NCBI RefSeq assembly: GCF_963583255.1
Contig: NC_084807.1
Location: 19,538,072-19,602,071 of the forward strand
Direction of reading: 5' to 3'
Origin: Pyrus communis
Lineage: Eukaryota; Streptophyta; Magnoliopsida; Rosales; Rosaceae
Length of the DNA stretch: 64,000 nt
The notes below the pieces were generated by a model, which ran no database searches, was not told the origin of the DNA, and was given only the letters and a program-made list of their open reading frames with translations. A program made the translations under genes and the position numbers. Of the stretch, positions 4,607-23,060 are shown one piece after another. Numbering within the stretch: position 1 is the stretch's first letter; each line of letters starts with the position of its first letter.

Positions 4607-5458
4607 GGAAAATTTTATTTGAACCCATGTAACCTCTTTTCACACCCAACTTACTCTCTTCACCCATTTTGTTTTTTTATTAAAGAATAAATCTCTCTTT
4701 AAACCCAAATTTATTACTTAAACTACCCTCTCAAATCCAATTCAAAATGTTAAGTTATCTTTACACTCATTCCCTTTATAAAATAACATCTATAATTGAA
4801 TTATTTATTTATTTTATTTTTTATTTTATTTTATCTAAAGAGGCATCCTTACCCCCACCCCGTCTTCCCACTAGCATTTCCATGACTACTTTCTTCTTCT
4901 TTTCTTTTTTTTTCTTTCTACTACCATACCCAAACATTTGCCTTTTTTCTTTCTACTGATGTGCATAAGCAATAAATCAAACAATTCATCCCCTTATATT
5001 TATCAACAAGCGAGGAAGTTTATAATCTAAGAACAATTGTTAAGAAGTTTTTCCTTAGAATTTTCTAATTGTTGAAAGTTTAACAGACAATTTGGGAATG
5101 ATGAAAAAAATGAAACCCAAATACTCATCTTCTAAAATTTAAAAAAAATTGAAATTAAACGAACAAAATATTCATAAATTGAGTCATACCTCAGCTAAAG
5201 GATTCAAAACTTTAAAATCATCATTCATCACTAAAAAAACTTGTTTTTCCCTACAAGACCTACTATGGTTTTAGCCAGAATGAACGTAGAATAAACAATA
5301 AGTGATGGTAGGGTTTAATGGGTTTATTGATAAATTTGAGTTCTATTATTTCATTTTGTACTTAATAGTAATTATGCAATAGGGTAAAATAGACAATTAA
5401 AATTTTAAATTTAAGTTGGGTGTAGAAAGAGGTTACATGGGTTGAAATAAAATTTCCC
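4607..5458. mobile_element. Mutator-like MITE, 852 bp, copy A
   Basis: The left end GGAAAATTTTATTTGAACCC and the reverse complement of the right end (GGGAAATTTTATTTCAACCC) match for about 48 bp, continuing through CATGTAACCTCTTT and ACACCCAACTTA. The element is flanked by 9-bp duplications, ATTAGTTAA (4598-4606) and ATTGGTTAA (5459-5467), with one mismatch. Long TIRs plus a 9-bp TSD are diagnostic of the Mutator superfamily. No transposase ORF is present, so it is non-autonomous. A related copy lies near 61390-62048. Confidence 0.85.
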
Positions 5459-5506
5459 ATTGGTTAAACTTTTTACTTTGGTTGTTGAGATTTGAAATCG
5501 AAAAAA

Positions 5507-5685
5507 ATGGTCCCTGAAATCATCTACCATCAATCATTTTTGTCTTTCTGTGAGAAATCTCCGTTAAAAGAGAGCAATTTTTGTCAACTCCTCCACTTGA
5601 AATGGTGGTTTCTTTAATTTAACAAAGATTTTTCACAAAATGACAAAAAATTATTGATGGTGGACAATCTTAGGGATCAAAATGA
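5507..5685. mobile_element. Foldback MITE
   Basis: An inverted repeat pairs the left arm (about 5515-5567, containing CTACCATCAATCATTTTTGT and GAGAAATCTCCGTTAA) with the right arm (about 5620-5673, containing TTAACAAAGATTTTTCAC and ATTATTGATGGTGG). The spacer is about 50 bp, so the transcript would form a long imperfect hairpin. No certain target duplication was found. Confidence 0.65.
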
Positions 5686-6037
5686 GGAGTTATGACAATT
5701 TCATGATCATTTTGGCTTTGTAGTAGTTTTTGAAAAAAAAAAAAAGTACATATATATATATATTAAAAATAGGCAAATCCTTTAAGAATTTCAAATTGAA
5801 TATCATGAATTTGATCCAAATTGATTTTTCTTTTCATTTTCAACTTCTGAGAGGGACACAAATCTAGGCAACTCAACTTATACAAAGATTTTTAATTAAA
5901 AATAATAATAAAATAAAACTAATACTTACACAAAAGATTTTCTTTTTTGGTTTGAATTTTAAACCAAGATTTTATGTTTCTTTTTCTTTTTTTGTCAACG
6001 AACTTTAAACCAAAGTTGGCTAAGGGCCCATCTAAAT

Positions 6038-6051
6038 ATGATGCTTTGTAA
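6038..6051. repeat. Left target-site duplication of LINE
   Basis: ATGATGCTTTGTAA followed by an A-rich run to about 6086. It is repeated at 36089 after the LINE tail, marking the LINE insertion. Confidence 0.8.
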
Positions 6052-6086
6052 AAAATTAAAAAATTAAAAAAAAAAAAAAAAAAAAA

Positions 6087-8842
6087 GGGTTCTCTAGGGT
6101 TTAGTTGGGGAAAAGGGGGCCGCCAGCTTCCTCTGTGGGGCTATGATGAGATCTCGTAGCCATGGGAGGTATTTTGTTGTAAATTCGTATTAAAATTAAT
6201 CGTGCTAATGTTAATCTTATCAGTTGTGCTAATTGGAAAAGGTGTTAAAGGTATTTTGGAGAAGATAATTCGAATTGATAATTGGGTAAATTGCCTACTG
6301 AGGAAAATTTTGGTTGTTAATTGGAGTTCTAGGGTTATGGTTGGGAGTTTGTGCCTTTGCTGCATTAAGCCTTGGTTTCTTGCGTGGCTCTTCCTTGGCT
6401 AGGATTAGACTGGATTGATGTGGAAGGGTCTTAAATTATTAGGGCTAGGGTTTTGGGTAATTAGAGTCTGCGAGTGTAGGTCTTGTAGGCTTAGAGGATC
6501 TTCATTTGAGTTTTTAGACGCTTGGTATTCTGACCTTTTATGATTAGCTGGTTCTCTACTTTGCATTGTGTGAGTAGGGTTTTATGTTGTGATAATTATT
6601 GCTTTTGCCATGCTTGTTGCTTGGTCTTTGCACCTTTAATCTTGTTTTTGGTTTTGTCTTTGCGTCGTTTGAGCTTTTGTATGGCTTTGGTTTATGCTAC
6701 TTGTTTAATGAGGTCTGGATTATGCCATTCTTACTTGTTAACTTGGTTTGTGCCAACTATTACAACCAATTATCTACTGAGTTTTTTCTTCATAAGGCTA
6801 CTCTTATGTCATGAAGGGGAGTGCCTTACGTTGCGTTGGGAGTGCATCATTTTCTTTAATGGTTGGATTCCCCCAAGTGTTTGGTATTTAAGTGAGGGTT
6901 GGGCATGGAGGATGAGCACATTTTCTGCTCTTCCTATTCTCTCACTTTGGTTGCTTAATCCCGCTTCTATGGCCAACTCTAAGTTCTTTGCATCTTCTTC
7001 TTCTAACCCTAAGAGACCTAGGATTTGTTCTGACCATTACGTGCCAAGGTGGGCGAACCATTTTTCCCTTCCCTAACTTAGGGAAGAACATGTGGTGGTG
7101 GAGAAATCCTTTGGAACTTTTACCATGGAGCGTGGGGTTACCAGGGTTAGCACAACTCTTTGACCTGACCTCAATGTAGAGCTCATAAAATCTTGGAAGC
7201 TGGGGTTTCTTTGGAAGAATAGTGTAAAGAATAATTTTTATCTTGATCACTATGAGAATGGATGGTTCACACTGGAATTCTTATATGCGGATAACTTTGA
7301 CTTCGTATTCAATAATAGACCTTGGTATATTTGAGGACAAGTGTTCCATTTGGAGAGATGGCCGACTCATTTTAGTGACATGGGTGCTATTAGCAAGCTT
7401 GTTATCTAGGCTAGGCTGCCAAGACTCCATGTGCAGTACAAAGAGGACAAGATTATCAAGATCATTGCACAAACCTTAGGGGACATTTGAAGGGTGGATA
7501 AGGTAACTCTTAATCTTAATGGTTTATTTGTCAAGGTTTTAGTTGAAGTGGACTTACGGTTTCCGCTAAAAAGGTCCTCGTTGTAAATGAGGATGATGAA
7601 AACCCAATTTTGGTGAGTTATGAAAAAATCTTTTAAGTATGTTTCTATTGAGGTAGGCGGAAGGGTGGCAATCACTCTTGTCTTGATGAGGAGATTGATG
7701 ATGGATGTTTTATGATTGAGAGGGTGTTCGATGATGAGCCCAATCCCGGAGGATATTAAAGTGAAAAAGGACATTAAGGACACTCTATAAAGCGATGTGC
7801 TACTTTGTTTCCCTATGGCTGTGGCACAGAAAAAGGTGAATTTGGATGCAACAGATGATCGAGTTCAAAAAAATAAAGGTGAAGGTCCTGATGAAGAGGG
7901 GTGGACAATGGTGATCCTAAAATGACGCTGAATGGCTAATAAGCAACGGGCTTCTAAGAAGATTTAGGAAGACACTGCTCCCAAAGAAAGTAGCAAGGGT
8001 CCTAAGTACAAATGGGTGGTTCATGCGGATCTTATGCAGGATTGGAGGAAAACTGACAAGAGCATGGACTAGCTAAATGAGGTAATTATAAGAATTAAAT
8101 ATCTACTTTGAGGTAAGGTAATTAAAGCTGATTGTTTAACTAGTAGGATAATTATTAAAAGTATCTGTTAAACTTATGTTAAAAACCTTTGGTTTAATTT
8201 GATTGAAATTCATTTATGGAAGTTCTTGTCTTATGTTAAACTTATAGGCATGTGTTTTACCTTAATGATGTTTCTAGTTTGCTAGTGGTTGATTGTTGTG
8301 TTTGTGTTTAGGATGTTATTGTGCAAGGGGATAGTAAGGTTTTGGGGGAAAGTAGTAGAAGTGTCAGAGATGCTATGGTGGTTAGCATGGCTGTGGAGGC
8401 CACTTAGGCTCTAACTAGACTAACTGTAGGTCGGATAAGTCCAAGGAAGAGAATCCGCAAGGAGTTTGCAAAAATAGAGGCAAGTTACAAGAGCCAGCTT
8501 GAAGAAATCAACTGATGAAGTGTATGACTTAGAAATGTAGGAGCCCAGGGAAGCCGGATTTTAAAAGTAATTTTAATTTGTTGTGTACTAGTTTTAGAAT
8601 GGACCTTTTTTGTTTAATGGAGACTAAAATGAATGTGGATAAGGTCTAAGAGAACTTCTATGATAGTTATTTTAATCAGCTTGTTAGCTGTGAACCCACT
8701 GGCAAGGTTGGAGTTTAATTATGTTTTGGAATTCTTCCAAAGTTGTTATTAATGTGATTTCAAGATCTTCTCATTTTATTCATTGTCTTGTGACTGATAG
8801 GGCCTCAAACTTTGAATCTCTTGTTACCTTTGTTTATGTTTT
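6087..8842 (+). pseudogene. LINE segment 1: 5' region, ORF1 and start of ORF2 endonuclease
   Basis: ORF1-like coding is visible in fragments. Around 7200-7480 there is a DUF4283-like stretch (ENGWFTLEF, WARLPRLHVQYKED). Around 7560-7640 the translation reads KVLVVNEDDENPILVSYEKI, the sequence that precedes the zinc knuckle of plant L1 ORF1 proteins. ORF2 begins near 8540 with an apurinic-endonuclease-like start (SPGKPDFKSNFNLLCTSFRM, then LFCLMETKMNVDK). Stops interrupt every domain. The break at 8842 lies within the endonuclease, where Gypsy-1 inserted; the frame resumes at 19937 (VFPHKQLQPKLWEDLL). Confidence 0.75.
8838..8842. repeat. TSD of Gypsy-1, left (GTTTT)
   Basis: GTTTT directly before the TGTAGACATC start of the 5' LTR. 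The same five bases follow the 3' LTR at 19932-19936. Confidence 0.9.
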
Positions 8843-8900
8843 TGTAGACATCGAAATTTCGGTGAAATGAATGTTAACCAATAATTAAAATTTCAACGCT

Positions 8901-8986
8901 CACGTGTCACATAAATTTTACATGTAGCGTGTGACTCAACGAAAAATCGAAATAAATTGGAAAGGTCATCAAATAGGACACGTGTC
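8901..8986 (+). promoter_or_regulatory. G-box / ABRE-like motifs in the LTR U3
   Basis: CACGTGTC at 8901-8908 and the palindrome GACACGTGTC at 8977-8986 are ACGT-core elements bound by plant bZIP and bHLH factors. They lie 70-150 bp before the TATA box, so stress- or light-linked transcription of the element is possible. The same sites recur in the 3' LTR. Confidence 0.5.
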
Positions 8987-9052
8987 AATATCTGGCAGAA
9001 ATGATTTATTTCATCTGATTATTTAAATCCAAAAAATCAAGTTTTGGAATTC

Positions 9053-9060
9053 TATAAATA
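9053..9060 (+). promoter_or_regulatory. TATA box of the Gypsy-1 5' LTR
   Basis: TATAAATA within TTCTATAAATAGGAGGCC matches a plant TATA box and lies about 210 bp into the LTR. The identical site in the 3' LTR is at 19101-19108 and could drive transcription outward into the LINE remnant. Confidence 0.7.
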
Positions 9061-9888
9061 GGAGGCCAAGGCATTCATTTCAAAACAAAAAAAGAGGGAG
9101 AGAAAGGAAGAAGAAGAGAAAGAAAGAAAGGAAGAAAGAAAGGAAGAAAGAGAGGAAGAAAGAAAGGAGGGAAGAAGAAAGAAAGAAGGGAATTTACATC
9201 ACACCAAAACCTTGAAGCCTTGAAACTCTAAAGCTCTCAAGCAAATCCCGAAGGATCAAGAAAACATTCTTCGTTCTTCGTCAAATCCTCCTTCAAGATC
9301 AAGCCCCAACGGCCCTTGAAGAACTTCCACCAACTCAAGATCAAGCCCCGACGGCCCTTGAGGAAAGTGTTCATCGTTCATCATCCGTTCATCCTAAGAT
9401 CAAGCCCCAACGGCCCTTTGGATCAACAACCTCAACAAATCCACACATCCAATCAGTCTTCAAGATTAGGCCCAAAAGCCCTTGAAGACCCGCTCATCCA
9501 TCAACCCTCAAGATCAAGCCCCGACGGCCTCTTGAAGAAATCCATACACCCAGTCTTCAAGATTAGGCCCAAAAGCCCTTGAAGATCCGCTCATCCATCA
9601 ACCCTCAAGGTCAAGCCCCGACGGCCCCCTTGAAGAAATCCATACACCCAGTCTTCAAGATCAAGCTCAAAAGCCCTCGAAGATCCGTTCATCAACTGTT
9701 CATCCCTAGATCAAGCCCCGACGACCCTTTGGATCAACAGCTCATCCACAAACCTACACCCTACGAAGATAGAATCAGAGGATCAAATTACAAAGAGATT
9801 GTAACCCCAAAATCAATACAAACAAAAAATATATTTTGTACGCGTTATTCTTGTCTCTTGTTTCAGGAATTTTTCGTGTTCACAAATT

Positions 9889-9906
9889 TGGCACGCCCAG
9901 TGGGAC
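9889..9906 (+). other. Putative primer-binding site of Gypsy-1
   Basis: TGGCACGCCCAGTGGGAC starts 4 bp after the 5' LTR. The near-identical TGGCATGCCCAGTGGGAC lies next to the Gypsy-2 5' LTR, supporting its role as the tRNA primer site shared by this lineage. The tRNA was not identified. Confidence 0.7.
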
Positions 9907-9956
9907 TATCTCTACCTCTCATCTCTGTCTCCGTTAAAGATATTCAAGCACAGTCC

Positions 9957-12316
9957 ATGGCTTCAAACAAAGAACAAGTCACGACTATCGGCACTACCTC
10001 CATTGAAAAACAGCTGGTTCAGATGAAGGAAACAATTGCAAGGCTGATAAAGACTGCAGAGGAAAAAAACTTGCAAACCGCCGGACTCATCAACCGTCTG
10101 GAGGCGCAACATGGTGTCATAGTGAAACCAAGCTCTCTTCCAACTAAGAGGACCGAAGAAGGCTTCAACCCAAATGCCTACGAACTCATGTCAAAGGCTA
10201 GGCATGACTTTGCTTCCTCTTCAAATCTTGGAAAGAAGGTTTCAAACACCGTCAACGACAAAGATCGCGACCTCACCAAAACTCAAAAGAAGTTGAAGGA
10301 GCATGGTTACGGAGTTGACAACAACCAAAGCACACCTCCAAAATCAATGGCATCAAGCAAGGGACAAGCCGTTCTTGCAACCACCAAGGGAAGAAGCATA
10401 AGCACTTCCGCCACGAATGGAGCATCCATTGGCACCACAACCACTCATCAACATGCCGCTTCAAAATTGGTACCGCTAAGCGAGCAAAGGGAACATCAAA
10501 GGCGCGAGTCTATCATCAACCTAACCTTGCTGGGGGCACCAAAGCATGCTGCTAAGGCGCATAAGATGACATCCCAAAATGGCCAATGGGTTTCTTCATC
10601 AGCACCCTGGATGTCTGAAGGAAAGTCATGCCTATTGGTTGCACAAGTCATGACCATCGGCGTCACCTCTGTTGAAGAACAGCTAGCTCAGATGAATGAA
10701 GCAATCGCAAAGCTCACACAGACTGTGGAAGAGAAGGACTTGCAGATTGCCGCACTTGTCAACCAACTAGATGCACTGCCCGACGTAAAAGTCGACCCAA
10801 ATATTGGCCTATTAAAGAAAGAAGGTGACGAAGAAGAGGAGCCACCAGTGGAGAAAGCTGAAGAGAAGCCGAAGCCAGACCAAGCAATGACATCCATGGG
10901 ATCTCTCTCTATCCAGCAGCTACAGGAGATGATTGCAAGCACTATCAAGACACAGTACGAAGGAAGCTCGCACGACTCCGTACTGTACTCAAAGCCTTAC
11001 TCCAAGAGGATTGATGCTTTGAAGATGCCAAGGGGTTATCAGCCCCCAAAATTCATGCAGTTCGATGGAAAAGGCAACATGTCGCCCATTTCATTGAAAC
11101 TTGCAACAATGCTGGGACAGAGGGGGACTACCTCGTCAAACAGTTCGTGCGTTCGCTGAAAAGTAACGCTTTTGACTGGTACACCGACCTCGAACCCGAG
11201 TCTATCAACAGTTGGGACCAGCTAGAAAGGGAATTCCTCAACCGTTTCTACAGCACTCGTCGTACTGTAAGCATGCTAGAGCTGACCAGTACGAAACAGT
11301 GGAGAGATGAACCTGTCATCAACTACATAAATAGATGGCGTTCATTAAGCCTGGATTGCAAAGATCGGCTTTCTGAAACCTCCGCCATCGAGATGTGCGT
11401 TCAAGGCATGCAGTGGGGACTACACTACATCCTTCAAGGCATCAAACCACGAACATTTGAGGAGTTAGCCACCCGCGCCCATGATATGGAGTTAAGCATC
11501 ACCCGTCACAGGAAGAAAGAACAGATCGCCGACTACAAGAATGACAAAGTTTTGGGGCCCAAGGTGGATAAGGCTGCGTGGAAACCCACCAAGGAAGCAA
11601 TGACAGTCAACACAACTCCAGTCAAAACCCATACACGAGGCAAGGCGATTCAAACCGAAGCTTTTCGTGATCAAGAGATACGTAGACGCACTTTGAAGGA
11701 GCTTGAGGAGAAGACTTATCCATTCCCCGACTCTGACGTGGTTGCCATGTTAGATGACTTGCTGGAAAAAAAGGTGATCAACCTACCTGAGTGTAAACGG
11801 CCGGAAGAGATGAACCGTACTGACAGTCCAAGGTACTGTAAATTCCACCGCTTCATTGGTCATCCGACGGAAAAGTGCTTTGTGCTAAAAGATCTCATCA
11901 TGAAGTTGGCTCAGAAAGGGATCATCGAGCTAGATCTTAATGATGTGGTGAAATCAAACTATACCTCCGTCACTTCTGGCTCTTTGAACTCAAAGTCTTC
12001 ACCTCAACCGCTGGGGGCATGCTCCAAAACCATGTCAGTCAAGTCAAGTGAAGTTGAAGGATGGACTTATGTCACTCCAAAGAAAATGCACAAGAAACAT
12101 AGGTCTCCTCCACAAGTTCACCAATCGGAAAGGGGGCAAAGCAGCTACCGTCAACCTTCAAAGCTACATGAAAGTGTTGAGGATGATGAAGTTATGACAC
12201 AAAGATCGTCTGTTGCCATCACGATGCGCGATTTCTTCCCCAAAGACTTCTTCAATCACTCAGTTAAGACTCTTTGCTATGAAGATTGCAAGGAATGCCT
12301 TTCTAAGATCGTTTGA
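9957..12316 (+). pseudogene. Gypsy-1 gag (Tat-like), frameshifted
   Basis: The probable start is ATG 9957 (MASNKEQVTTIGTTSIEKQL). The N-terminal part contains an internal duplication: TTIGTTSIEKQLVQMKETIA recurs as MTIGVTSVEEQLAQMNEAIA. The Retrotrans_gag domain starts at [14 protein letters not shown] near 11065, and a small deletion then shifts the frame. The second frame (11147-12316) carries [30 protein letters not shown] and [19 protein letters not shown], then a [16 protein letters not shown] motif (11834-11881) common after gag in Tat elements. The frame ends at 12316 with no protease behind it. The protein would form the particle shell; here it cannot be made full length. Confidence 0.85.
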
Positions 12317-12601
12317 CAAATTCCAAATGCTCCTGGTCTGCACGAGCATAAAAGGCGACATCAAAAGCTCCTTGTCTGCATGAGCTGAAACTGCAAACGG
12401 CACCAAAAGCTCCTCGTTCGCACGAGCCTAAAAGGTGACACCAAAAGCTCCTTGTCTGCACGAGTTGAAACTGCAAACGACGCCAAAAGCTCCTTGTTTG
12501 CATGAGCTGAAACTGCAAACGGCACCAAATGCTCCTGGCCCGCAAGAGCATAAACTGTGTACGGCAAAATCATCACCAAAATCATCACCAAAATCATCAC
12601 T
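12310..12601 (+). repeat. Tandem array of ~42-bp units and 12-bp units
   Basis: About six degenerate units of the form CCAAAAGCTCCTTGTCTGCA followed by CGAGCTGAAACTGCAAACGG. They are followed by three copies of AAAATCATCACC (about 12566-12601). The array starts at the gag stop, where protease would begin in an autonomous element. Confidence 0.8.
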
Positions 12602-12833
12602 CATTTGAACTACGTTATGACTTGATCTCTTCTTTGGAAGAGTACGTAGGCAACTTGAAACTTCAAAACTTCAAGTACAGTCACATCAAAATAAATAAAT
12701 AAATGTTTCATTAAAGAAAGTCAATTTTATTACAAAAGAAAAGAAAAAAAATAATACATATGTTACTATGTATTAGAAAAAATATATATATATACATATG
12801 TTATAATGTATTACAAATAATAATAATGGCGGT

Positions 12834-12982
12834 GGGCTGGATTGTTGAGGATAAAGCCCAAAACCATGATTGGGCTGGATTGTTGAGAATAAAAGCCCAA
12901 ACCGTGGGCTGGATTGTTAAAGATAAAGCCCAAAACCGTGAGTGGGCTGGATTGTTGAGGATAAAAGTCCAAAACCGTGAGC
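12834..12982 (+). repeat. Tandem array of ~38-bp units
   Basis: Four imperfect copies of GGGCTGGATTGTTGAGGATA followed by AAGCCCAAAACCGTGAG. The array lies just upstream of the captured gene mosaic, after an AT-rich stretch. Confidence 0.8.
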
Positions 12983-13137
12983 CTATTGGCATCAGCCCAA
13001 TGGCGTCCTTCTTTTTCCTCGCACCCATGCCCAGCAACCTCTCCACTACCATGGAAGTGAAGCATCAGCTTTGCTACCTCACTCCGCCAAACCCCACCTG
13101 CTACACAGGGTGCGCACACCCGGAGCAAGGTGGCCTC

Positions 13138-13252
13138 CACCGACTTGGTCTCATCCCCCTCACCTCCGACCGCGCCATGAGCATGCGCTTCTCACGTGAC
13201 TGCGACGCCTGCGACGGCGACGGCCAGTGCGAGTTCTGCTCCGTCGAGTTCC
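13138..13252 (+). pseudogene. Captured fragment of RNA polymerase subunit RPB3
   Basis: The frame open from 12760 to 13530 reads HRLGLIPLTSDRAMSMRFSR, then DCDACDGDGQCEFCSVEFH. This is the conserved loop with the Cys cluster in the third-largest subunit of plant RNA polymerases II, IV and V. Homology starts abruptly at HRLGL and stops after VEFH, where the expected continuation is replaced by unrelated sequence. Only about 38 of some 320 residues are present, so it cannot act in a polymerase. The preceding 13000-13137 (MPSNLSTTMEVKHQLCYL) is not recognised and may be another captured piece. Confidence 0.8.
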
Positions 13253-13486
13253 ACCATCCGCGTTTCCAGAGCCTCCGACGGCAAAGATCGCCACAGCCTG
13301 CTCACCAGACGCAGAAGCTATCCGTCCCCGCCGCCTTTCCCAAAGAGAAGCCCGAGTGGGTCATGTCCGGGTCTCCCCAGTCGACTCTGAGCGGAATCGG
13401 GAGCTGGTCCAGCAACGGAAGCCCGACGGGCCCGTCTTCCCAGGTGCCTTCACCACCGACGACGCCGTTTGGAGCTCAGAACGACA
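13253..13486 (+). pseudogene. Captured fragment of a Pro/Ser-rich plant protein
   Basis: In the same open frame as the RPB3 piece the translation becomes FPKEKPEWVMSGSPQSTL, GIGSWSSNGSPTGPSSQV and PSPPTTPFGAQND. The EKPEWVMSGSPQSTL block resembles a plant-specific family of unknown function that I recall but cannot name with certainty. It is clearly not part of RPB3 or of the serine decarboxylase that follows, so it is a separate donor. The junction with the next fragment is near 13486. Confidence 0.5.
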
Positions 13487-13690
13487 TCTGGGTTATCTGT
13501 ACAATTTGGACTTCGACTATGGTCCTCTAATATAGCTTCAGCATTTCTCCATCAACAATTTGGGCGATCCGTTTATCGAGAACAACTACGGTGTCCATTC
13601 AAGGCAGTTTGAGGTTGATGTTCTCGATTGGTTTGCTCGGTTGTGGGAGATTGAAAAGAATGAATATTGGGATACATCACCAACAGCAGC
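13487..13690 (+). pseudogene. Captured fragment of serine decarboxylase
   Basis: Translation gives HLGYLYNLDFDYGPL, a stop, then [39 protein letters not shown] and EKNEYW, then after a 1-bp shift GYITN. This matches plant serine decarboxylase (a PLP enzyme making ethanolamine) upstream of the cofactor-lysine region. A TAG replaces the Gln codon before LQHF, and a G is missing in the EYWGYITN segment, so two lesions disable the frame. The matching region in SDC genes is normally interrupted by introns, whereas it is continuous here. Confidence 0.8.
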
Positions 13691-14249
13691 CACAGGGACA
13701 CCAGCACCACCAAGCCACTGCTCCGATCGCACGGTCTAAATGAGATTGGATCTTCCAACTCTTCTTCTTGTTCTTCGACATCGTCGGCGGCTCTGGTTCG
13801 CCAGCGAAGCTCTCCAGCTGGCTTCTTAAGCCATCTCACCGCCCCTGAGAGCAATGGAGGATTCTCAGTTACAAGAGGAACTGGAAGCTATAGATCACAA
13901 GGGGGCAATAATGGTGGTCCCGGAGTAACAAGAATAAAGTCTCAGTTGAGCTTCACTGGGCAAGATTCTCTTTCTCAAATCTCTCAACTCCGCCAAGTAA
14001 ACGAGCTAAAAATATGGATGTTGACATATTTGACTGCCTCAATACTTTAGAATCTCAGTTTAGCCTTCCCCAGACGTCTTTAGAAATGGCAACAGTAGAG
14101 AAGCTACTACACATTCCTGAAGATTCTGTTCCTTGCAAAATCCGTGCTAAGCGTGGCCGTGCAACATATCAAAGCCTTCAACATCAAATCCAGGATCTTC
14201 ATAATGATCTTGAGCATTGCACTTGCGGTTGCAAACCAACCGCGAAATG
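13691..14249 (+). pseudogene. Captured bHLH transcription factor fragment without its bHLH domain
   Basis: The sequence reads LVRQRSSPAGFLSHL, GGFSVTRGTGSYRSQGG and SQLSFTGQDSLSQIS, then after an internal deletion and frame change PPSKRAKNMDVDIFD, LESQFSLPQTSLEMATVEKL and PEDSVPCKIRAKRGRAT. It then jumps to LQHQIQDLHNDLEHCTCGCK and a stop. These are the N-terminal, pre-basic and C-terminal motifs of bHLH122/128/130-type factors. The basic helix-loop-helix region between KRG(C)AT and the C-terminal coiled segment is missing. Donor exons are fused without introns. As read it cannot bind DNA. Confidence 0.85.
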
Positions 14250-15262
14250 ATCCCAAATGATGATGAAGCACGCGAAGCTCACGAGGATCCAGTCGTTGCT
14301 GCTGCGGTCGTCGCCGACGATTCGATCCTCCATTCACAGCTTCAACTCTGTCACGGAAGAGGACGTCTTTGCCGCCAACGAAAACCACCGCTATTGCCGT
14401 CTGCATATGGCTCATTGCATGAGGAAGTTGCCTTCACATGATACAGGATGTCTGCTCACCTGTGTAAATGACTTGAAAATTGTGTCGATGAGGGTCATGT
14501 CAGCACAGGAAACCTCTCATGGAGCTGAAAACAGAAGATTGGTTGTTAGTCTGATGGAACCAACCATTGAGTATATCATGAAATGCATATTTAGGAATGC
14601 GTCTGAGAAACAAGTAGGTGATGTACTCGTTGAGCTTGGAGTTGGGTTGAATCAAAAGGAGTTGCTTGGAAGGTTCCCATGTGTCTCGACCGTTCTTCAT
14701 CATCTACTCAAGCAACTTCCATCTGAAGTAGTTAGCTCAAGGGCAGTAGAGATCCTTCATCTTATTGAGTGCAGCAGGGATGATTCCCTTGATCAGTGCT
14801 TGAATTACAGGTTACTTGAATTACAGGTTACTTGGATTTAGGCTCTGTGAAAAATCTCAAATGGACACTGTCAATGCTATAGTGGACAAAATCATTGAGG
14901 TTATTATTGAATATGATGGACTTGATGACTACTTGAAGGTTGTGGATGCTTTTGTGGATATTGTTCTACAAAATCATATGGATGAACATCTAAGCTCCAT
15001 TTTAGAAGGCATTTCAAAACGAGCATGCACTAAAGGTATTGCTGATGATGACCTGGCAACCTTGCAGTCCATTTTGGTGAAGCTTCTTTCATATTGCAAG
15101 GACATAGAAGACATATTTTCCATGAATCATTTTCTCAAAATCTTGGATCTGATGTATGGAAATTCGCGAAGCATCGTCAATATCCATATCCTTGATATGG
15201 GGATAAGGAAGGGTTGTATACGTGATCCAAGAACTATACAGTTTCTTCTTGAAATTTCTCAG
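14250..15262 (+). pseudogene. Captured fragment of a VPS35L-like (retriever subunit) gene
   Basis: The longest captured piece reads MAHCMRKLPSHDTGCLLTCV, VVSLMEPTIEYIMKCIF, VSTVLHHLLKQLPSEVVSSR and AVEILHLIECSRD. After a frame shift it continues CLNYRLLGFRLCEKSQMD, IIEYDGLDDYLKVVDAFVDI, ILEGISKRACTKGIADDDLA and ILDMGIRKGCIRDPRTIQFL. I recognise this as the plant homologue of VPS35-like/C16orf62, a helical-repeat subunit of the retriever endosomal recycling complex. A 16-bp tandem duplication (TTGAATTACAGGTTAC twice, about 14803-14834) causes the frame shift. The coding is otherwise continuous for about 870 bp with no intron, consistent with a cDNA origin. Confidence 0.75.
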
Positions 15263-15540
15263 GCAGTGCAATGGATGTGTAGTGGCTGTGCTTGGTGGTT
15301 GTGCTCGGTACTCATGCTCAGTGGCTGTACTCCTTGCCTGTGCTCAATGGTGATGGTGGAGCTTTTCCCTCTGTCTCCTCACGCTGCCAACAAACCTCGA
15401 GCTCCTCACTCTGGCCACCATGATCAAAATCAACGAAGAGCTTCATTGACCGCTGTCAAACGACTAGCCGGTCTTCAAACTCGACGCCTTACGCTCTGCT
15501 TCAAGCTCTGGCTGCTTCTGCACTTCCGCCATGGCTGCTG
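15263..15540 (+). other. Unassigned segment of the captured mosaic
   Basis: After EISQ of the VPS35L piece the sequence changes to repeated GTGCT/GGCTGTG-type motifs, then to codon-like GC-richer DNA containing LELLTLATMIKINEELH in one frame. That peptide looks like host coding sequence, but I cannot name the gene. It may be a sixth captured fragment. Confidence 0.35.
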
Positions 15541-15826
15541 CCTGTGAATGTGATTAACAAAAACAAAGTTTGTCAACTCACATCTGCTTGCCTCTGCTGC
15601 TGCCTGTGAATGTGATTAACAAAAACAAAGTTTGTCAACTCACATCTGCTTGCCTCTGCTGCTGCCTGTGAATAACAAAAACAAAGTTTGTCAACTCACA
15701 TCTGCTTGCCTCTGCTGCTGCCTGTGAATGTGATTAACAAAAACAAAGTTTGTCAACTCACATCTGCTTGCCTCTGCTGCTGCCTTTGAATATGATTGAC
15801 AAAATCAAAGTTTGGCAACTCACACC
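15541..15826 (+). repeat. 62-bp tandem repeat, five copies
   Basis: Units start at 15541, 15603, 15665, 15721 and 15783 and contain CCTGTGAATGTGATTAACAA, CAAAGTTTGTCAACTCAC and ATCTGCTTGCCTCTGCTGCT. The third unit lacks 6 bp and the fifth is diverged and partial. The high identity of units 1-4 suggests recent amplification. Confidence 0.9.
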
Positions 15827-16300
15827 CAAAGACTTTCTCCGTCTCTTACCTCCTACTACTCCAAGCTCCTCTGCATTTCCTCCCTGCAGGGAATATTTAT
15901 ATAAAAAAAATATTATTAAAAAAAAAAAAAGGGGGATCTATCTTGGTGGATCAGTACCACCGAAAGCAAAGAAAAAAATATAATAAAAAAAAAAGGCTAT
16001 TTAACTTACTTGAACCAACGGGTGTTGAAAAAAAAAAAAAAAAAAAAAAAAAAAAACATTTTCCTGTTTTTCCTCCCAAAACAAGGAAAGATGTTTCTCC
16101 TTTTCTTCCTTTATAATTTTTATAGCCAAAAGCATTTGCAAGTTGTTGTCTAGCTGAAAGCATAGTCAAGTTGGCCATTATCCAACATAAAAAATAAAAA
16201 AAAAAATCTTGGTGATGTATATGTTTTATCTGTATTTAGCACAATACACTGAATAAAATAAAGCATATCCATTAATCTTCAAGAAATTACAAGAGTGTAC

Positions 16301-16332
<32 letters not shown>

Positions 16333-16337
16333 AGCTT
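15827..16337 (+). other. A-rich and unrecognised segment inside Gypsy-1
   Basis: Contains A-runs at about 15902-15930, 16028-16056 and 16300-16329. Multiple internal A-runs within an LTR element could be relics of polyadenylated transcripts joined by template switching. No coding sequence is supported. Confidence 0.45.
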
Positions 16338-16985
16338 TCACAAAGGATGTTCACGTGAAGCCCCATTGCTTGGCAAAACTCTCGGAGCGGGAGGCATTGG
16401 AGCAGAAGTCATCGGAGCGGAAGACATTGAAGCTAGAGCATTCCAGGCCTCAATACTTGGCCAAACGCTGGAAGACCCAGGAAAAAGATGTCTCTGGAGG
16501 AAAGACGAAAACCTTTGACGGTCACTTTGAATCCGACCTTCAGACTCTTGCAGCTCATCAAGCTTCCTCTTCATGCCCGTCGAATAGTTGTTTGCAAGCA
16601 CGTGCAAACTTCTATTCTCATACTTCAGCTGCTTGATCTCTTGCTTGAGACTTTCCACCTCCGCCATCAAGGATTCAACTTGGCGGGAGCGAGCAAGTAG
16701 GCGTTGGCCCATGTTGGACACAGAGCCTGTGCACTGAACACTGAGAGCGAGGGACTCTTGAACGGCCAACTCATCGGACCGTCCTGAAAGCAGCCGACTA
16801 TCTTCAGGAGTGAGGAGGTTCCTAGCTACTATCGTAGCTGTTGTTGCGTCCTTCATCACAGAGTCTTCACCTGTAAGAGGACCGTTAGAAGATAAAAAAG
16901 AAGGGCGCCATACATTACCTTGACGGGGCACAACCGGATCGCTGCTGAGACTCAAATCTAAGCAAAGGTTCGATGAGTTAGTCAT
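16338..16985 (-). CDS. Antisense ORF of Gypsy-1 (215 aa, coiled coil)
   Basis: An uninterrupted 215-aa frame lies antisense to the element. It starts MTNSSNLCLDLSLSSDPVVP and contains a strong coiled-coil candidate at about residues 98-150 (RQVESLMAEVESLKQEIKQL, then KYENRSLHVLANNY). The C-terminus is Met/Pro/Ala-rich (MSSAPMTSAPMPPAPRVLPS). No enzyme motif is visible. Additional antisense ORFs near the 3' end are known from plant Tat-lineage Gypsy elements, and this resembles such an ORF. It is intact while gag is broken, so it may be under selection or simply young. Function unknown. Confidence 0.6.
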   Translation of the reverse strand: MTNSSNLCLDLSLSSDPVVPRQGNVWRPSFLSSNGPLTGEDSVMKDATTATIVARNLLTPEDSRLLSGRSDELAVQESLALSVQCTGSVSNMGQRLLARSRQVESLMAEVESLKQEIKQLKYENRSLHVLANNYSTGMKRKLDELQESEGRIQSDRQRFSSFLQRHLFPGSSSVWPSIEAWNALASMSSAPMTSAPMPPAPRVLPSNGASREHPL

Positions 16986-18890
16986 TTTTCAAAGGTGTTC
17001 AGAGAGAAGGGGTGGATGGAGATAATTCTCAAAAGGCCGGAGACAATTTTCAAGAATGGGCAATTTTCAGAGTGTGTATGTTGGAGTGATCGATACCTCT
17101 GTAAAAAGCCAAGCGACGCGACCACCGATTCAAAAATCCGGATTTTCCTGCGTGAAGTTCGGCGACGCGTTCGCGGCTTTTCAGAAAACGCGTTCAACTT
17201 TGTCAAAAGATATCTGACAAAGTCGAGAACACGTGGAGGCCATCATCGTAACTACACGTCTTTAGCCGACAAGCGCAAAGTTCGGCGACGCTTTCTCTGC
17301 TTTTTAGAAAACGCGTGCAACTTTGTCAAAAGTGGCGCTCGTTCAGAAATCGAAGAGGCGTCGTTCAGAAATCGAAGAGGCGTCGTTCAGATATCGAAGA
17401 GACGTTTGTCGACAAGGGTAAAAGAACGGTACCACCACTTGCTATTAAGAAATCCCTATATGTGTCGACCTTCGTCTCTTATGGCAAGGCAGACCTGAAG
17501 AAAATGCCCAACTCTTCCTCACCTCTGAGGACGCACTCCCAGCAAAGCCTCTCGAAATACACAATTCTTCTTCTTCCTTTGAGAAAACCTATTCAACCTT
17601 TGAAGATACCAGATGCCTGGAGTACAGATGACCCAGGAGGAAACGATAGATTGAAGCATGTGCTGATTCATTCACCGCTTCTTCAAAAGCAAAGGTATCT
17701 CATATCATCAAGGGCGAAAGCATAGGTATCTCATATCATGCTTTTTCCCTATCTTTTCCTTTGCCCTTGTACTCACCTGCCAAGACAAGGACAGAGGAAG
17801 CAATATGTCGGAACCTCCACTCAAACCAGTTGCCACCAAGGAGTGAAGCACCATTTAAATGCAAAGGTTGCATTCAACTCCTGCATCGGAGGACAAATAC
17901 TACAAGAGAAGATGCTAAACCTGCATAAGGAAATACCACTTCTGCAAAGGGGAGCAAGTAAGGCAAGCGAAAATGATACATCGAAGCATGTGGAGACAAG
18001 CACAACAAATATATGTGCTGATTCATTCGCTGCTTCTTCGAAAGCAAAGGTATCTCATATCATGCTTTTTCCCTGTCTTTTCCTTAGTCCCTGTTATTAC
18101 TCGCATGGCAAAGTGAAAGAGAGCAGTCAGCGGCACTTGGAGTCAGTCTTCCGATCTGGAACCGACTACCTGGAATCTATTCCTGATTGCTTACCTAGTA
18201 TTGCTCTCGAGTAGTCATCTTCAACGGTTGATACACTGCCAGAGAAGGGACAAGGAAACTTCAATCTTTCCAACCCTCTTCAATACAAATTGGAAAGATT
18301 GAACAAAGAAACAGGTCAGCACCTCCACCTCGTACTTGCCTGCCATATCCTGAAACCGCTCGTAGATCTTCGGGGGGAGACCAAAAGAATCCTGCTGCCC
18401 AGTTCAAGAGTAGCACAAAGGAAAATCAACGAGCGGAGGAGACCAGAAAAATCCTGCTGCCCAGTTCAAGAGTAGCACAAAGGAAAATCAACGATGGGAG
18501 GAAACCAGAAAATCTTCCAGTCGAACTCAAGATCAAGCCTCAATGGCCCTTGAAGAAATCACAAGTCCGATTCAAAATCAAGTGTTCACCACCCTTGAAT
18601 CAAATTCAACTCCTGATAAAAGGAGTACGTTCAAACCTTCGGAGGAGACCAAAAGAATCTTCCAGCCCAGTTCAAGATTAAGCTTGTGGAAAATCAACGA
18701 TAGGAGGAAACCAGAAAATCTTCCAGTCGAACTCAAGATCAAGCCTCGATGGCCCTTGAAGAAATTTCCAGCTCAATTCAAGATCAAGCCTCGACGGCCC
18801 TTGGGTTGACATCTACATTAAGGGACTTCAAAACGCATCTTCTACACGTGACAAGCACATGTCAACGACGCGCCTTGAAGTGGGGGCATT
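16986..18890 (+). other. Gypsy-1 3' internal region with direct repeats
   Basis: No recognisable protein domain. Repeats seen: a GTTCGGCGACGC block followed by AAAACGCG at 17158-17205 and 17279-17330; three 22-bp units (CAGAAATCGAAGAGGCGTCG plus TT) at 17344-17409; a repeated TATCTCATATCATGCTTTTT segment at 17726 and 18050; and a tandem ~60-bp duplication (ATCCTGCTGCCCAGTTCAAG) at about 18390-18490. Near 18525-18805 three copies of the LTR-type motif AAGATCAAGCCTCGACGGCC occur outside the LTR. Open frames of 136-167 aa at 16995-17725 look like chance readings. Confidence 0.55.
18878..18890 (+). other. Polypurine tract of Gypsy-1
   Basis: AAGTGGGGGCATT directly precedes the 3' LTR (TGTAGACATC). 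It is the usual plus-strand primer site and confirms the plus orientation. Confidence 0.75.
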
Positions 18891-19931
18891 TGTAGACATC
18901 GAAATTTCGGTGAAATGAATGTTAACCAATAATTAAAATTTCAACGCTCACGTGTCACATAAATTTTACATGTAGCGTGTGACTCAACGAAAAATCGAAA
19001 TAAATTGGAAAGGTCATCAAATAGGACACGTGTCAATATCTGGCAGAAATGATTTATTTCATCTGATTATTTAAATCCAAAAAATCAAGTTTTGGAATTC
19101 TATAAATAGGAGGCCAAGGCATTCATTTCAAAAAAAAAAAGAGGGAGAGAAAGGAAGAAGAAGAGAAAGAAAGAAAGGAAGAAAGAAAGGAAGAAAGAGA
19201 GGAAGAAAGAAAGGAGGGAAGAAGAAAGAAAGAAGGGAATTTACATCACACCAAAACCTTGAAGCCTTGAAACTCTAAAGCTCTCAAGCAAATCCCGAAG
19301 GATCAAGAAAACATTCTTCGTTCTTCGTCAAATCCTCCTTCAAGATCAAGCCCCAACGGCCCTTGAAGAACTTCCACCAACTCAAGATCAAGCCCCGACG
19401 GCCCTTGAGGAAAGTGTTCATCGTTCATCATCCGTTCATCCTAAGATCAAGCCCCAACGGCCCTTTGGATCAACAACCTCAACAAATCCACACATCCAAT
19501 CAGTCTTCAAGATTAGGCCCAAAAGCCCTTGAAGACCCGCTCATCCATCAACCCTCAAGATCAAGCCCCGACGGCCTCTTGAAGAAATCCATACACCCAG
19601 TCTTCAAGATTAGGCCCAAAAGCCCTTGAAGATCCGCTCATCCATCAACCCTCAAGGTCAAGCCCCGACGGCCCCCTTGAAGAAATCCATACACCCAGTC
19701 TTCAAGATCAAGCTCAAAAGCCCTCGAAGATCCGTTCATCAACTGTTCATCCCTAGATCAAGCCCCGACGACCCTTTGGATCAACAGCTCATCCACAAAC
19801 CTACACCCTACGAAGATAGAATCAGAGGATCAAATTACAAAGAGATTGTAACCCCAAAATCAATACAAACAAAAAATATATTTTGTACGCGTTATTCTTG
19901 TCTCTTGTTTCAGGAATTTTTCGTGTTCACA
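18891..19931 (+). repeat. 3' LTR of Gypsy-1 (1041 bp)
   Basis: Matches the 5' LTR base for base where compared. The only difference seen is in the A-run before GAGGGAGAG (11 A against AAAAC followed by 7 A). The encoded short frames (19363-19629 against 9316-9582) are identical. Confidence 0.95.
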
Positions 19932-19936
19932 GTTTT
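19932..19936. repeat. TSD of Gypsy-1, right (GTTTT)
   Basis: GTTTT after the terminal CA of the 3' LTR matches 8838-8842 exactly. Confidence 0.9.
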
Positions 19937-22900
19937 CCCTCATAAACAACTTCAACCTAAGCTTTGGGAAGATTTACTTCAACTAGATCCGGGGGATAAA
20001 CCTTGGTACTTAATAGGGGATTTCAATAATATTTTGGATCTTTCTAAGAAGAAGGGGGGTTGTCAAGTAACCACTATGTTCATAAATAGATTTGTGGACT
20101 TCCTTAATAAAGTGAATCTTATTTCTCTTAAGGCCTCAGGGGTTCCTTACACTTGGCGTAATAATTAGGATCGCAACATAAAGGTCTATGAAAAACTTCA
20201 CTGAGCCATTGTAAATGAGAGCTGGTTAACTAAAAATCCTAACTTTAATCTTCATAACTACCCTATCTTTGGCTCGGACCATGGACCTATCCTACTAACC
20301 TTAAATCATAATATTAGCAGAAGGAAAACATATCCATTTAGATTTGAGGCTATGTGGATACTCAATCCTAATTTCAAGACTTTTGTGAAAGATGCTTGGA
20401 GATGTGGTGATGATCTTGGGCCTGGCCATAATTTTTGTGTTTGTGCTAACACATTCAAGTACTTAGTTAGAGATTGGAATTTGAGTACTTTTGGTAATGT
20501 TAAAGCTCGTAAGGACAAGTTACTGCAAGACCTCTTTGAAGTTTAAATGAAAATAATGAATAATCTTCAAAGTAACTAACGAGTTATATAAAACTGGAAG
20601 AGAAAATTAGTGATGATCTTAATCTAGTTTTAAGATGAGGAAATCATATGAGCTCAAAAAGCTAAAGCTAACTGGTTGAAGCTTGGGGATAGAAATACCA
20701 AATTTTTTCAAACTGTTGCCACTATTAGGAGGAAAAGAAATGAAACAAAGAAGGTCAATGATCACAATGGGTTTTGGTGGAATGCTGGGGAGGGTTTAGA
20801 GCAGGTTTTTGTGCAGGATTTTATGCTACGTTTCTCTACGAGACCCTCTCCCTCTTCCTCGGATTTAAACAATTACTTGGACCTAATCCTCCCCTACATT
20901 AATGGTTGTGACAATGCTGCTTTGCTTCAGCGGTGGAGAACAATGAAATCTAGGAAGTAGTCAAAAGTATTGGAGCGCTCAAAGCACCCAGACCTGATGG
21001 GATTGGAGCAGGTCTTTACCATGAATGCTAGGACATTGTTAAAGACTCAATAAGTCCAATGATAAAAGATTTCTTTCTTGATAATTCAAGTTTAAGGCTA
21101 ATTAATCATACAAATATTGCTCTTATTCCTAAAATGGAAAACCCTGAAACAGTTGGTAATTATAGACCCAATAGTCTATGTAATGTAAGTTACAAAATTA
21201 TTATGAAAATTATTATCAAGAGGCTAGACCGCTATTGGATCGTTGTGTTTCTAAGTCTCGATGGGCTTTTTTTTCGAGTCGCTCAATCCATGATAACATT
21301 CTAATTGCCCATGAAATGTTCTCTAGGTTTAAATGTAAGAAAGGATGGATGAGTTCCATGGGCATAAAGATTGACCTTGAAAAGGTTTATGACCTGCTAA
21401 ACTGGGACTATATCAGGTATGTGCTTCTAAAATTTGGTTTTGATGAGAGGTGGGTTAGGTTAGTCATGGAATGCTTAACGTCCACTTCATTTTCAATCCT
21501 AATCAATAGTTCTTCTCATGGTTATTTCTACCCCTTTAGGGGTATTAGACTAGGTGATCCTTTATCACCCTATACTTCATTCTTTGCATGGAGCCTTCTA
21601 TCAGACATCTTAACTTGTTAGCTATAAACTCAAAAAACCATTGGGAATCATATCCTCCCAGGAGGATTTTGTGTTTCTAATTTAGTATTTGCTGATGACT
21701 GTCTTTTGTTTGCTAAATCGACCATAAAGGGTGCTAGACCAAGCGTTAAATTTATTCGCAAAAGCTTCTGGACAACTAACTAATTTTCATAAATCTTCTT
21801 TGTACTTCTCGAATAATACTTCGTCTCAGTTGAGAAATTCAATTGTTAATATCCTGCAAATTCAACATAAAATTACAATTGGCAAGTATTTGGGAATACA
21901 TAATATTGTGTTTTGGAAGGATCCGGTAAATGAACAGGTTGGAAAGCGAAGACTTTATCTAAAGCTGGCAGGCTCATTCTTATCAAATCAAACTTATCAG
22001 ATATGCCAAATCATCTCATGTCCTACTTTAACTGCTCTTCTAGGGTGACTAAACGCTTAAATAAAGAATGTAGAAATTTCTTCTGGGGTAGTGAGGAAAT
22101 TTTGTTCCGTTAGCTTGGAATAAGATTTGTAGGCTTAAAGATTAGGTTGGTCTTGGGATTTGTCGAGTGGATCATTTTAATAATGCTCGCTTGGCCAAAT
22201 TGGGTTGGAAAGTGCTTACAAATGATAATAACTAGTGGGCTCAAATACTAAGAAGAAAATACTTGAAAATAAGTGACTTCCTCAATTGCAAAATTAAGCA
22301 CAATCACTCTTTGGCTTGGAAGGGCATTCTTTATAGTCAACACGTAATTGAGATGGGTGGTGGGTAATGACAAGGAGATTCTCTTCTAGGTAAATGACTT
22401 CATTCAAGATAAATGTTGGGATACCAATAAATTATTTTGTTTACTGGATGTTGATATTGTTTAAAAAAAAAAAAATTGTCTTCTAATCATCCCATTAAGG
22501 GACACCTAGGATTACTTTATTTGGAATTATTCTTCTACGGGTGAATTCTCAATTGAATTTGCTACATGGGTTCAAGGTAATACTAATCAAGAGGTTAATT
22601 GGAAAATTTTGCTTAAGCAAATTTGGAAGTTCACGATTCCATCGAAAGTTAAAATTTTTGCTTGGCTTCTTACTAATGGAAAACTAAATACAAAGGACAA
22701 ACTTGGCAGATTGATTCATACTATAGATATGTCTTGCCTTATTTGTGGTAAGGAGAAGGAAAATCAAACACACTTATTCCTCAAGTGTGATTTTGCCAAA
22801 AAAAAATAAAAATAAAAAAGTGTGCACTTTGTCCTCGTTAAGTCCTTGGTCAAATAATTCTAACCATTGGATTAATATTATTGAATGGCTTATCACTCTG

Positions 22901-23060
22901 CGCACTTCGAAGAGAAATAGGTTAAGTGATCTTAGGAAAGCCCTTTTGAATTGCTGACAAATTTGGAACGAAAGGAATAATAAGGTGTTTGGAAGTGTGG
23001 TGCCGTTCCAGCCAAGATGTGTTTTAATTGTTGTGAAACTGGGATGGATTATTATCATTC
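19937..23060 (+). pseudogene. LINE segment 2: endonuclease C-terminus, reverse transcriptase, zinc-binding domain
   Basis: The endonuclease end reads WYLIGDFNNILDLSKKKGG and SDHGPILLTL. A linker with KLGDRNTKFFQ leads to the reverse transcriptase: NHTNIALIPKMENPETVGNY, RPNSLCNVSYKI, SSRSIHDNILIAHEMF, IDLEKVYDLLNWDYI, RGIRLGDPLSPYTSFF and the catalytic FADDC motif near 21690. A zf-RVT domain follows at 22609-22809 (FTIPSKVKIFAWLLTNGKLN, then CLICGKEKENQTHLFLKC). These are in the normal plant L1 ORF2 order. Stops and frameshifts (for example 21235-21304) separate the blocks. Gypsy-2 inserted after LGWIIII. Confidence 0.88.
23056..23060. repeat. TSD of Gypsy-2, left (CATTC)
   Basis: CATTC before the LTR start TATTGACCC. 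The same pentamer follows the other LTR at 35504-35508. Confidence 0.85.

Follow-up and report, generated by a model that had tools for sequence, protein, structure and literature searches.

The window analysed here is a 64,000-nucleotide stretch of the pear genome (Pyrus communis, C5:19538072-19602071), and it contains at 8843-19931 an 11.1-kb long terminal repeat (LTR) element that, judged by its gag, is a non-autonomous member of the Ty3/Gypsy superfamily. Within this element lies a mosaic of spliced pieces of seven host genes. The element very probably belongs to a family that gathers spliced host mRNAs in a defined slot by template switching during reverse transcription, with the window mosaic as the product of several such cycles. 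An earlier note on this stretch had proposed a gene-capturing element with at least five host-gene fragments; the host-fragment cargo between the LTRs proved real and larger than claimed. Capture at the RNA level is strongly supported by the absence of introns, the sense orientation of the pieces and the microhomology at their joins, whereas for the packaging of the mRNAs, the direction of synthesis, the supply of polymerase in trans and the order of capture we infer the scheme set out below.

Seven host-gene pieces and their donors

Because Pfam recognised none of the host pieces in the window above its cut-off, the donors were identified through protein matches and genome DNA. Searching the genome (487 Mb in 29 contigs) with the 2,125-bp cargo gave 43 matches, with 29 of 29 candidates scored. 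These comprised the cargo itself, one complete second copy on C13, sibling elements carrying parts of it, and the donors exon by exon; every cargo piece has a source locus in the same genome. The closest protein matches of the cargo are from pear (Pyrus communis and P. ussuriensis x communis) and, given such matches, chance is on the alignments no reasonable account.

The pieces extend from 13137 to about 15265, and all seven lie on the plus strand in the element's sense frames, as the same-strand arrangement described earlier had it. The first derives from RPB3, subunit 3 of RNA polymerase II (13137-13262; PDB match, E 9.5e-20; 97% to L018 at C2:20783928), and is followed by 46 nt of a TCP transcription factor gene (13252-13297; 93% to L020 at C2:5141536, a donor with a long TCP frame). 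Two joined exons at 13288-13492 resolve the donor formerly described as a Pro/Ser-rich protein: the piece is from an uncharacterised family of plant proteins, listed as PF27723, and is 96% identical to the apple protein P0122 and 94-99% identical to L017 at C5:23826978, with one intron absent. The serine decarboxylase (SDC) piece (13485-13683; PDB match, E 3.5e-24) is 96% identical to L015 on C4. It adjoins a piece of a bHLH128-like gene that includes the stop codon and the start of the 3' untranslated region (UTR) (13680-14273; 96-99% in six blocks to L014 at C17:2391022-2395438, three introns absent). The N-terminus of a MORN-repeat protein (14269-14393; 120/125 identical to the native locus L053 at C7:21832113) and eight joined exon blocks of VPS35L (14391-15265; donor L013 at C14:17961856-17965634, seven introns absent) complete the series. 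The VPS35L piece is 98% identical to a Pyrus communis protein; against PDB its first half found no match and its second half a weak one to human VPS35L (E 0.001). All five donors named earlier stand, four of them (RPB3, serine decarboxylase, bHLH128-like and VPS35L) with protein support, but the MORN and TCP pieces had been missed.

Several further features are absent from the earlier note. The bHLH piece carries two internal deletions, joined near 13984-13987 and 14159-14165, off the mapped exon borders, and the VPS35L piece a 16-nt tandem slip duplication (14800-14831), seen in a repeat search and in the donor alignment. The cargo also contains one stop and frame changes, so that no single open frame spans the mosaic.

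Two loci considered as native donors were rejected, C4:27251296 for SDC and C6:15064123 for MORN; both adjoin slot sequence and are treated as sibling cargo. Another retro-derived SDC copy, L016 (C1:27546300-27547500), lacks an intron present in L022 and diverges after TEGK. In the apple protein P0178, a MORN N-terminal piece stands between unrelated stretches, and by eye the protein is possibly a further multi-donor mosaic; this was not counted, the sole support for it being a Med30 match below cut-off.

The cargo lacks the introns of its donors

All 11 donor introns that fall within the retained stretches, every one of them GT...AG, are removed exactly (seven in VPS35L, three in bHLH, one in PF27723). 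The donors match in eight blocks for VPS35L (C14), six for bHLH (C17) and two for PF27723 (C5). In annotated gene models from other Rosaceae and more distant plants, sequence inside the VPS35L and bHLH pieces is skipped or retained as at exon borders. The pieces are intronless, as had been claimed, with no donor intron retained in those tested. As in Bs1-like transducing elements, sense host-gene pieces without introns thus lie between LTRs; intron-bearing captured DNA of the Helitron or Pack-MULE kind is not found, nor, in the window cargo, is the 3' poly(A) end per retrocopy that processed pseudogenes made by long interspersed nuclear elements (LINEs) would have.

For the siblings L044 and L011, match blocks were used. 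The sugar-transporter part of L044 corresponds to seven separate blocks over 5.9 kb of a native gene on C11 (splice signals not checked); for its WI12 part the match is on C16, and for a third part on C7, in two blocks. The bHLH part of L011 lacks the same three introns as the window piece, with the first join altered.

Many siblings carry other cargo in the same slot

Matches to the sequence on either side of the mosaic indicate that the family has a cargo slot, extending in the window from ~12797 to ~15282-15397. On the 5' side (12560-12797, plus strand), which is common to many family members, 481 candidates were found and 40 scored; 33 of these 40 end at query 228-242, i.e. window 12787-12801, within 15 nt of one another. 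On the 3' side (15266-15545, plus strand), common to siblings, 40 of 140 candidates were scored, and matches start at 15282 (6), 15315-15320 (8), 15338 (3) and 15391-15397 (21). A start at 15266 is confined to the window element and the C13 copy (2/40 scored). Fourteen of the 40 3'-side loci, including these two, pair with a same-strand 5' match at most 10 kb away; the gaps measure 0.5-2.3 kb, apart from one of 7.6 kb. Six further loci among L023-L052 show 5'-side sequence, and both slot edges are present in 19 of these 30 loci.

Sense open reading frames (ORFs) of 23 loci were inspected over the 1.5 kb upstream of the slot, and 30 were picked by eye for Pfam. A Pfam family is matched at E<=0.001 by 21 of the 30 and above the curated cut-off by 16; L028, L037, the second L025 ORF, the first L030 ORF and L046 gave matches below cut-off only. 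Above cut-off are CWC25, Sod_Fe_N, UBA, U-box, HMG-CoA reductase, PB1, exostosin GT47, PPPDE peptidase, acid phosphatase B, DELLA, class-II DAHP synthase, WI12, sugar transporter, ARM, LRR and triosephosphate isomerase, 16 families new relative to the window, besides TCP, which appears again. Counting U-box and ARM apart, the window's seven donors and the siblings together represent at least 23 host gene types. Pfam supports the listed domain families only; the GRIP-, HGH1-, TIR-, MAX2-, NUB1- and PUB9-type names used for siblings are readings of translations. In L031 (286-1728), a single frame stays open for 481 codons (472 counted from the first Met) across U-box, HMG-CoA reductase and slot sequence; it is 97% identical to P0121, a protein annotated in a pear hybrid.

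In the same 1.5 kb of L023-L052, the sense strand has 15 A-runs of at least 18 nt, in 12 of the 30 loci, and no T-runs of this length. By eye, A-runs stand at cargo joins in L030, L035, L049 and L052 and in the element's own sequence in L032 and L048; they may be remnants of poly(A) tails or the result of slippage. Upstream of the UBA-bearing cargo of L027, copia-type sequence was recognised by eye (3-692), either captured element RNA or a nested insertion; this stretch gave no Pfam match.

The mosaic has moved and its parts are shared

The earlier suggestion to look for other copies of the mosaic yielded a second full copy of the element on C13, as well as siblings that hold parts of it. The C13 copy has its own target site duplication (TSD), CTCTC, and LTRs with 3 mismatches in 967; its mosaic is 99% identical to that of the window, and an alignment of 3,207 columns around the cargo shows 98.3% identity. 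Since this complete copy has its own TSD and LTRs that are only ~92-95% like those of the window element, the mosaic moved after its assembly. The LTRs of the two copies differ more than the cargo does, a pattern that recombination could give. The complete mosaic was found in these two elements only, both with LTRs and TSD, and not as a host gene outside an element. The mosaic also appears in gene annotation: the pear proteins P0162 and P0130 align to it at 99-100% for most of their length, and both are placed on a 481,821-bp contig, probably one contig of another pear assembly.

Parts of the mosaic recur in different company. The C6 sibling L011 carries bHLH with the window's second deletion but not its first, followed by its 3' UTR, MORN and, by eye, an ARAD1-like piece, and the bHLH-MORN join of the window looks like a deletion at CACGC in an L011-like ancestor. 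In its G deletion and LYLYN/GPL changes the SDC piece agrees with L015, located 1.1 kb away from a 5' slot edge, and its source is probably a sibling element. The first ~100 nt of the bHLH piece are also present, with other neighbours, in L025 and L026. Among siblings, the last ~158 nt before the slot are common to L025-L029, the last ~626 to L025 and L026 and the last ~559 to L027-L029, while L044 cargo 602-1445 is common to the C12 and C7 loci and 771-1445 to the C17 and C1 loci. From these alignments, cargo pieces seem to pass between elements. As parts of the mosaic occur in other combinations in the C6 and C4 copies, its assembly probably took several cycles and proceeded in part through recombination between element RNAs.

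These combinations make it unlikely that the mosaic arose in one burst, with reverse transcriptase switching through the seven mRNAs one after another in a single run. Such a run would agree with pieces that are all sense, abutting and intronless where tested, and with a complete series confined to the C5 and C13 copies. Against it stand the C6 sibling, where bHLH with the same second deletion and MORN have a different right-hand partner, SDC with the same derived changes near another slot edge, and the start of the bHLH piece beside other neighbours. The serial switching onto spliced mRNAs proposed earlier is thus upheld as RNA-level rather than DNA-level capture, but not as a single serial run.

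Short overlaps at the joins, and points that weigh against the reading

The pieces abut without spacers, as had been stated, at the eight joins tested. Exact overlaps are 6 nt for RPB3-TCP, 4 nt each for TCP-PF27723, PF27723-SDC and SDC-bHLH, 1 nt at the first and 7 nt at the second bHLH deletion, 5 nt for bHLH 3' UTR-MORN (in the L011 context) and 3 nt for MORN-VPS35L; L011 was used on both sides for one join, and L015 as the SDC source for two. The overlap is at least 4 nt at six of the eight joins, compared with a maximum of three of eight in 20,000 random-join simulations, and the summed overlap of the eight joins was attained in 0.045% of these simulations.

Several points count against template switching into a common slot. 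The two outer joins to element sequence lie outside the join test. Eleven splice joins, which are not template switches, overlap by 1-6 nt too (at least 4 nt in 4/11), shaped by the splice consensus, and short overlaps alone are therefore weak evidence. For the 339 nt immediately 5' of the RPB3 piece no source was identified; this stretch (12798-13136, plus strand), from the slot edge to the RPB3 piece, contains tandem repeats, and parts of it recur at six places besides the C13 copy. The exact intron check covers the window cargo only, and in 11 of the 30 loci L023-L052 the slot is marked by its 3' side only. Finally, a Pfam family was found in none of ten long antisense ORFs of siblings (taken from the 12 longest, one per locus, among 83 ORFs of at least 70 aa at 18 loci), but the comparison with the sense ORFs is biased, the latter having been picked by eye and the former by length.

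A model of template switching and its rivals

We hypothesise that reverse transcriptase, supplied in trans to the non-autonomous element, would depart from the element RNA close to the slot's 3' side and, where a few nucleotides are complementary, resume on a spliced host mRNA packaged with it, perhaps with further hops, before returning to the element RNA at the 5' side of the slot. The product would integrate with identical LTRs and a TSD and then be transcribed again, and a later cycle could bring in another piece, remove part of an existing one, or lead to recombination with a sibling RNA bearing other cargo. A bolder version, which we regard as plausible but slightly short of probable, is that this is a dedicated mRNA-collecting family, in which a switching site fixed between gag/pol and the region of the antisense ORF, repeated pickup of mRNAs and shuffling between elements build up a growing combinatorial library of chimeric multi-gene cDNAs, some of them now open chimeric genes such as the L031 frame (PUB9-like U-box, HMG-CoA reductase and slot; counterpart P0121).

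A very improbable origin, in our estimate, is the successive insertion of LINE-made processed pseudogenes into the slot of a resident element that was then amplified. The pieces are indeed spliced, several siblings contain A-runs, and by eye LINE-like sequence flanks the window element; the window pieces are, however, internal fragments without terminal A-runs, joined in sense at overlaps of 1-7 nt, whereas repeated insertion should have hit both strands and many sites. Slighter still is the probability that breaks inside an integrated element were repaired with spliced cDNA patches, rather than the pieces being joined during reverse transcription. Spliced-mRNA patches at breaks are described for mouse zygotes in the available text of PMC4516963, and microhomology would fit end joining, but breaks would be expected anywhere, with cargo in both orientations, and not as the same slot at many loci with varied cargo and no Pfam family on any of the ten antisense ORFs. 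DNA-level capture, of the Helitron or Pack-MULE type or by the patching of breaks with genomic DNA, the LTR element being a bystander, can practically be dismissed: multi-gene capture is typical of Helitrons and Pack-MULEs (PMC13317346, in the part available), but all 11 introns are exactly absent, the tested pieces contain no intron sequence, and the LTR and TSD structure is intact in two copies.

Timing and constraint

Of six VPS35L residues that distinguish Pyrus communis from Malus sylvestris, five are Pyrus-like in the element and none is Malus-like, which points to capture of VPS35L in the pear line; Malus domestica also agrees at one of the five Pyrus-like residues. The VPS35L piece has 9 mismatches in 773 counted bases (leaving out block 15125-15208, which contains a gap), with 3 synonymous and 5 non-synonymous among the changed codons scored, and there is no sign of protein constraint.

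The element's 5' LTR (8843-9884, TG...CA) and 3' LTR (18891-19931), both on the plus strand, show 0 mismatches over 1,043 aligned bases, two of which are flanking Ts, with one 1-nt gap in an A-run. At a rate of 1.3e-8, taken from the available part of a study of pepper (PMC5664825), a single LTR substitution corresponds to ~37,000 years, and LTRs without a mismatch therefore indicate a very young insertion. The same 5-bp TSD, GTTTT, stands on both flanks (8838-8842 and 19932-19936); paired TG...CA LTRs with a short TSD, the signature of an LTR element, are found here and again in the C13 copy.

Relation to known elements

Capture of host genes by LTR elements is already known; the new part is a fixed slot with changing multi-donor spliced cargo, a kind of family of which we found no description in the open-licence PMC literature. 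The comparisons that follow refer to the parts of each source that were available. Bs1 of maize is an LTR element with pieces of three host donors (PMC13317346), similar in carrying several host genes; the window element has seven donors, and its siblings bear different cargo at the same slot. In maize B73, 425 elements with gene fragments, representing at least 189 captures, were reported by Baucom et al. 2009 (PMC2774510), likewise intact LTR elements containing host gene fragments, and under the conditions of that survey no element combined fragments from two or more standard nuclear genes. LTR-driven retroduplication in pepper (PMC5664825) placed spliced genes, centred on NLRs, in LTR elements, most of them without gag or pol coding potential and so served in trans; two or three genes within single elements are mentioned, but a fixed slot with changing multi-donor cargo, the feature of the window family, was not found in that account. 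Captured genes are also described for LTR elements of rice and sorghum (PMC3726574), and transduced sequences among the additional ORFs of LTR elements are usually in sense (PMC7264820); these share host genes in LTR elements with the pear family, but no multi-donor slot family was found there. In a pear LTR survey, capture terms are absent from the main text.

For Onsen of Arabidopsis, new copies in transposition bursts are pairwise recombinants of family members (PMC5668417). Such intra-family recombination is the step we infer for the sibling-derived pieces of the window, although host-gene cargo is not mentioned for Onsen. Retand elements carry tandem repeats and antisense ORFs in a long region that precedes the 3' LTR (PMC11963269), as does the window element, but TRP28 (PF04195) is not matched in the window's antisense ORF, and no cargo slot was found described for Retand. 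In large retrotransposon derivatives (LARDs), the coding region is replaced by large conserved non-coding DNA (PMC4668562), whereas the window element has gag. Helitrons and Pack-MULEs also shuffle many host gene fragments, but the cargo of the window family is spliced and moves through RNA, and the family is their RNA-level counterpart. The acquisition of cellular mRNA by reverse transcriptase is usually argued from isolated end products; one genome that holds donors, products and sub-mosaics at the same slot makes switching, microhomology, mRNA choice and shuffling between elements directly measurable. The family is also a source of misannotated pear genes (P0121, P0129, P0130 and P0162).

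Further features of the element and the window

The gag region (9957-12316, plus strand) occupies two frames, recognised from Pfam and translations, and contains Retrotrans_gag (PF03732, 11147-12313, E 6.2e-13) above cut-off and a Ty3_capsid match (E 2.2e-4) below its Pfam cut-off. An ANTH domain match above cut-off lies within it (10548-10977, E 2.2e-5). By eye, its N-terminal region (9960-11159) has an internal near-repeat (MASNKEQ... and VMTIGVTSVEEQ...) surrounding an insert; BLASTP of this region against itself listed the self-match alone, so that the near-repeat was not recovered. The insert looks like the C-terminal pol sequence of Rosaceae Gypsy elements. The description of the element as pol-less fits, as by eye it has no pol-like ORF of at least 100 aa (only chosen ORFs were run through Pfam), and the pol of autonomous Ty3/Gypsy elements, with reverse transcriptase before integrase, is not found. 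Among the siblings, L048 by eye has a stretch resembling the C-terminal part of pol directly ahead of its 5' slot edge, which makes it a candidate lead to a pol-bearing partner. Where a primer-binding site and a polypurine tract would be expected stand ATTTGGCACGCCCAGTGGGA, 3' of the 5' LTR, and GAAGTGGGGGCA, 5' of the 3' LTR; no tRNA was matched.

Adjoining the slot on its 3' side, a repeat search found tandem repeats with a spacing of 56-62 bp (15476-15835, plus strand). The antisense ORF of 215 aa that follows (16338-16985, minus strand), taken from the ORF list, matches no family above the Pfam cut-off. A-runs of at least 18 nt occur in the element only at 16028 and 16301, both outside the cargo. 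Inverted pairs of at least 40 nt are absent from 5000-25000, shorter terminal inverted repeats and Helitron ends not having been searched for, and a viral-contig scan with gag as query gave no match. Elsewhere in the window, a homeobox-leucine-zipper-like ORF recognised by eye (45362-45772, minus strand) looks like an ordinary host gene.

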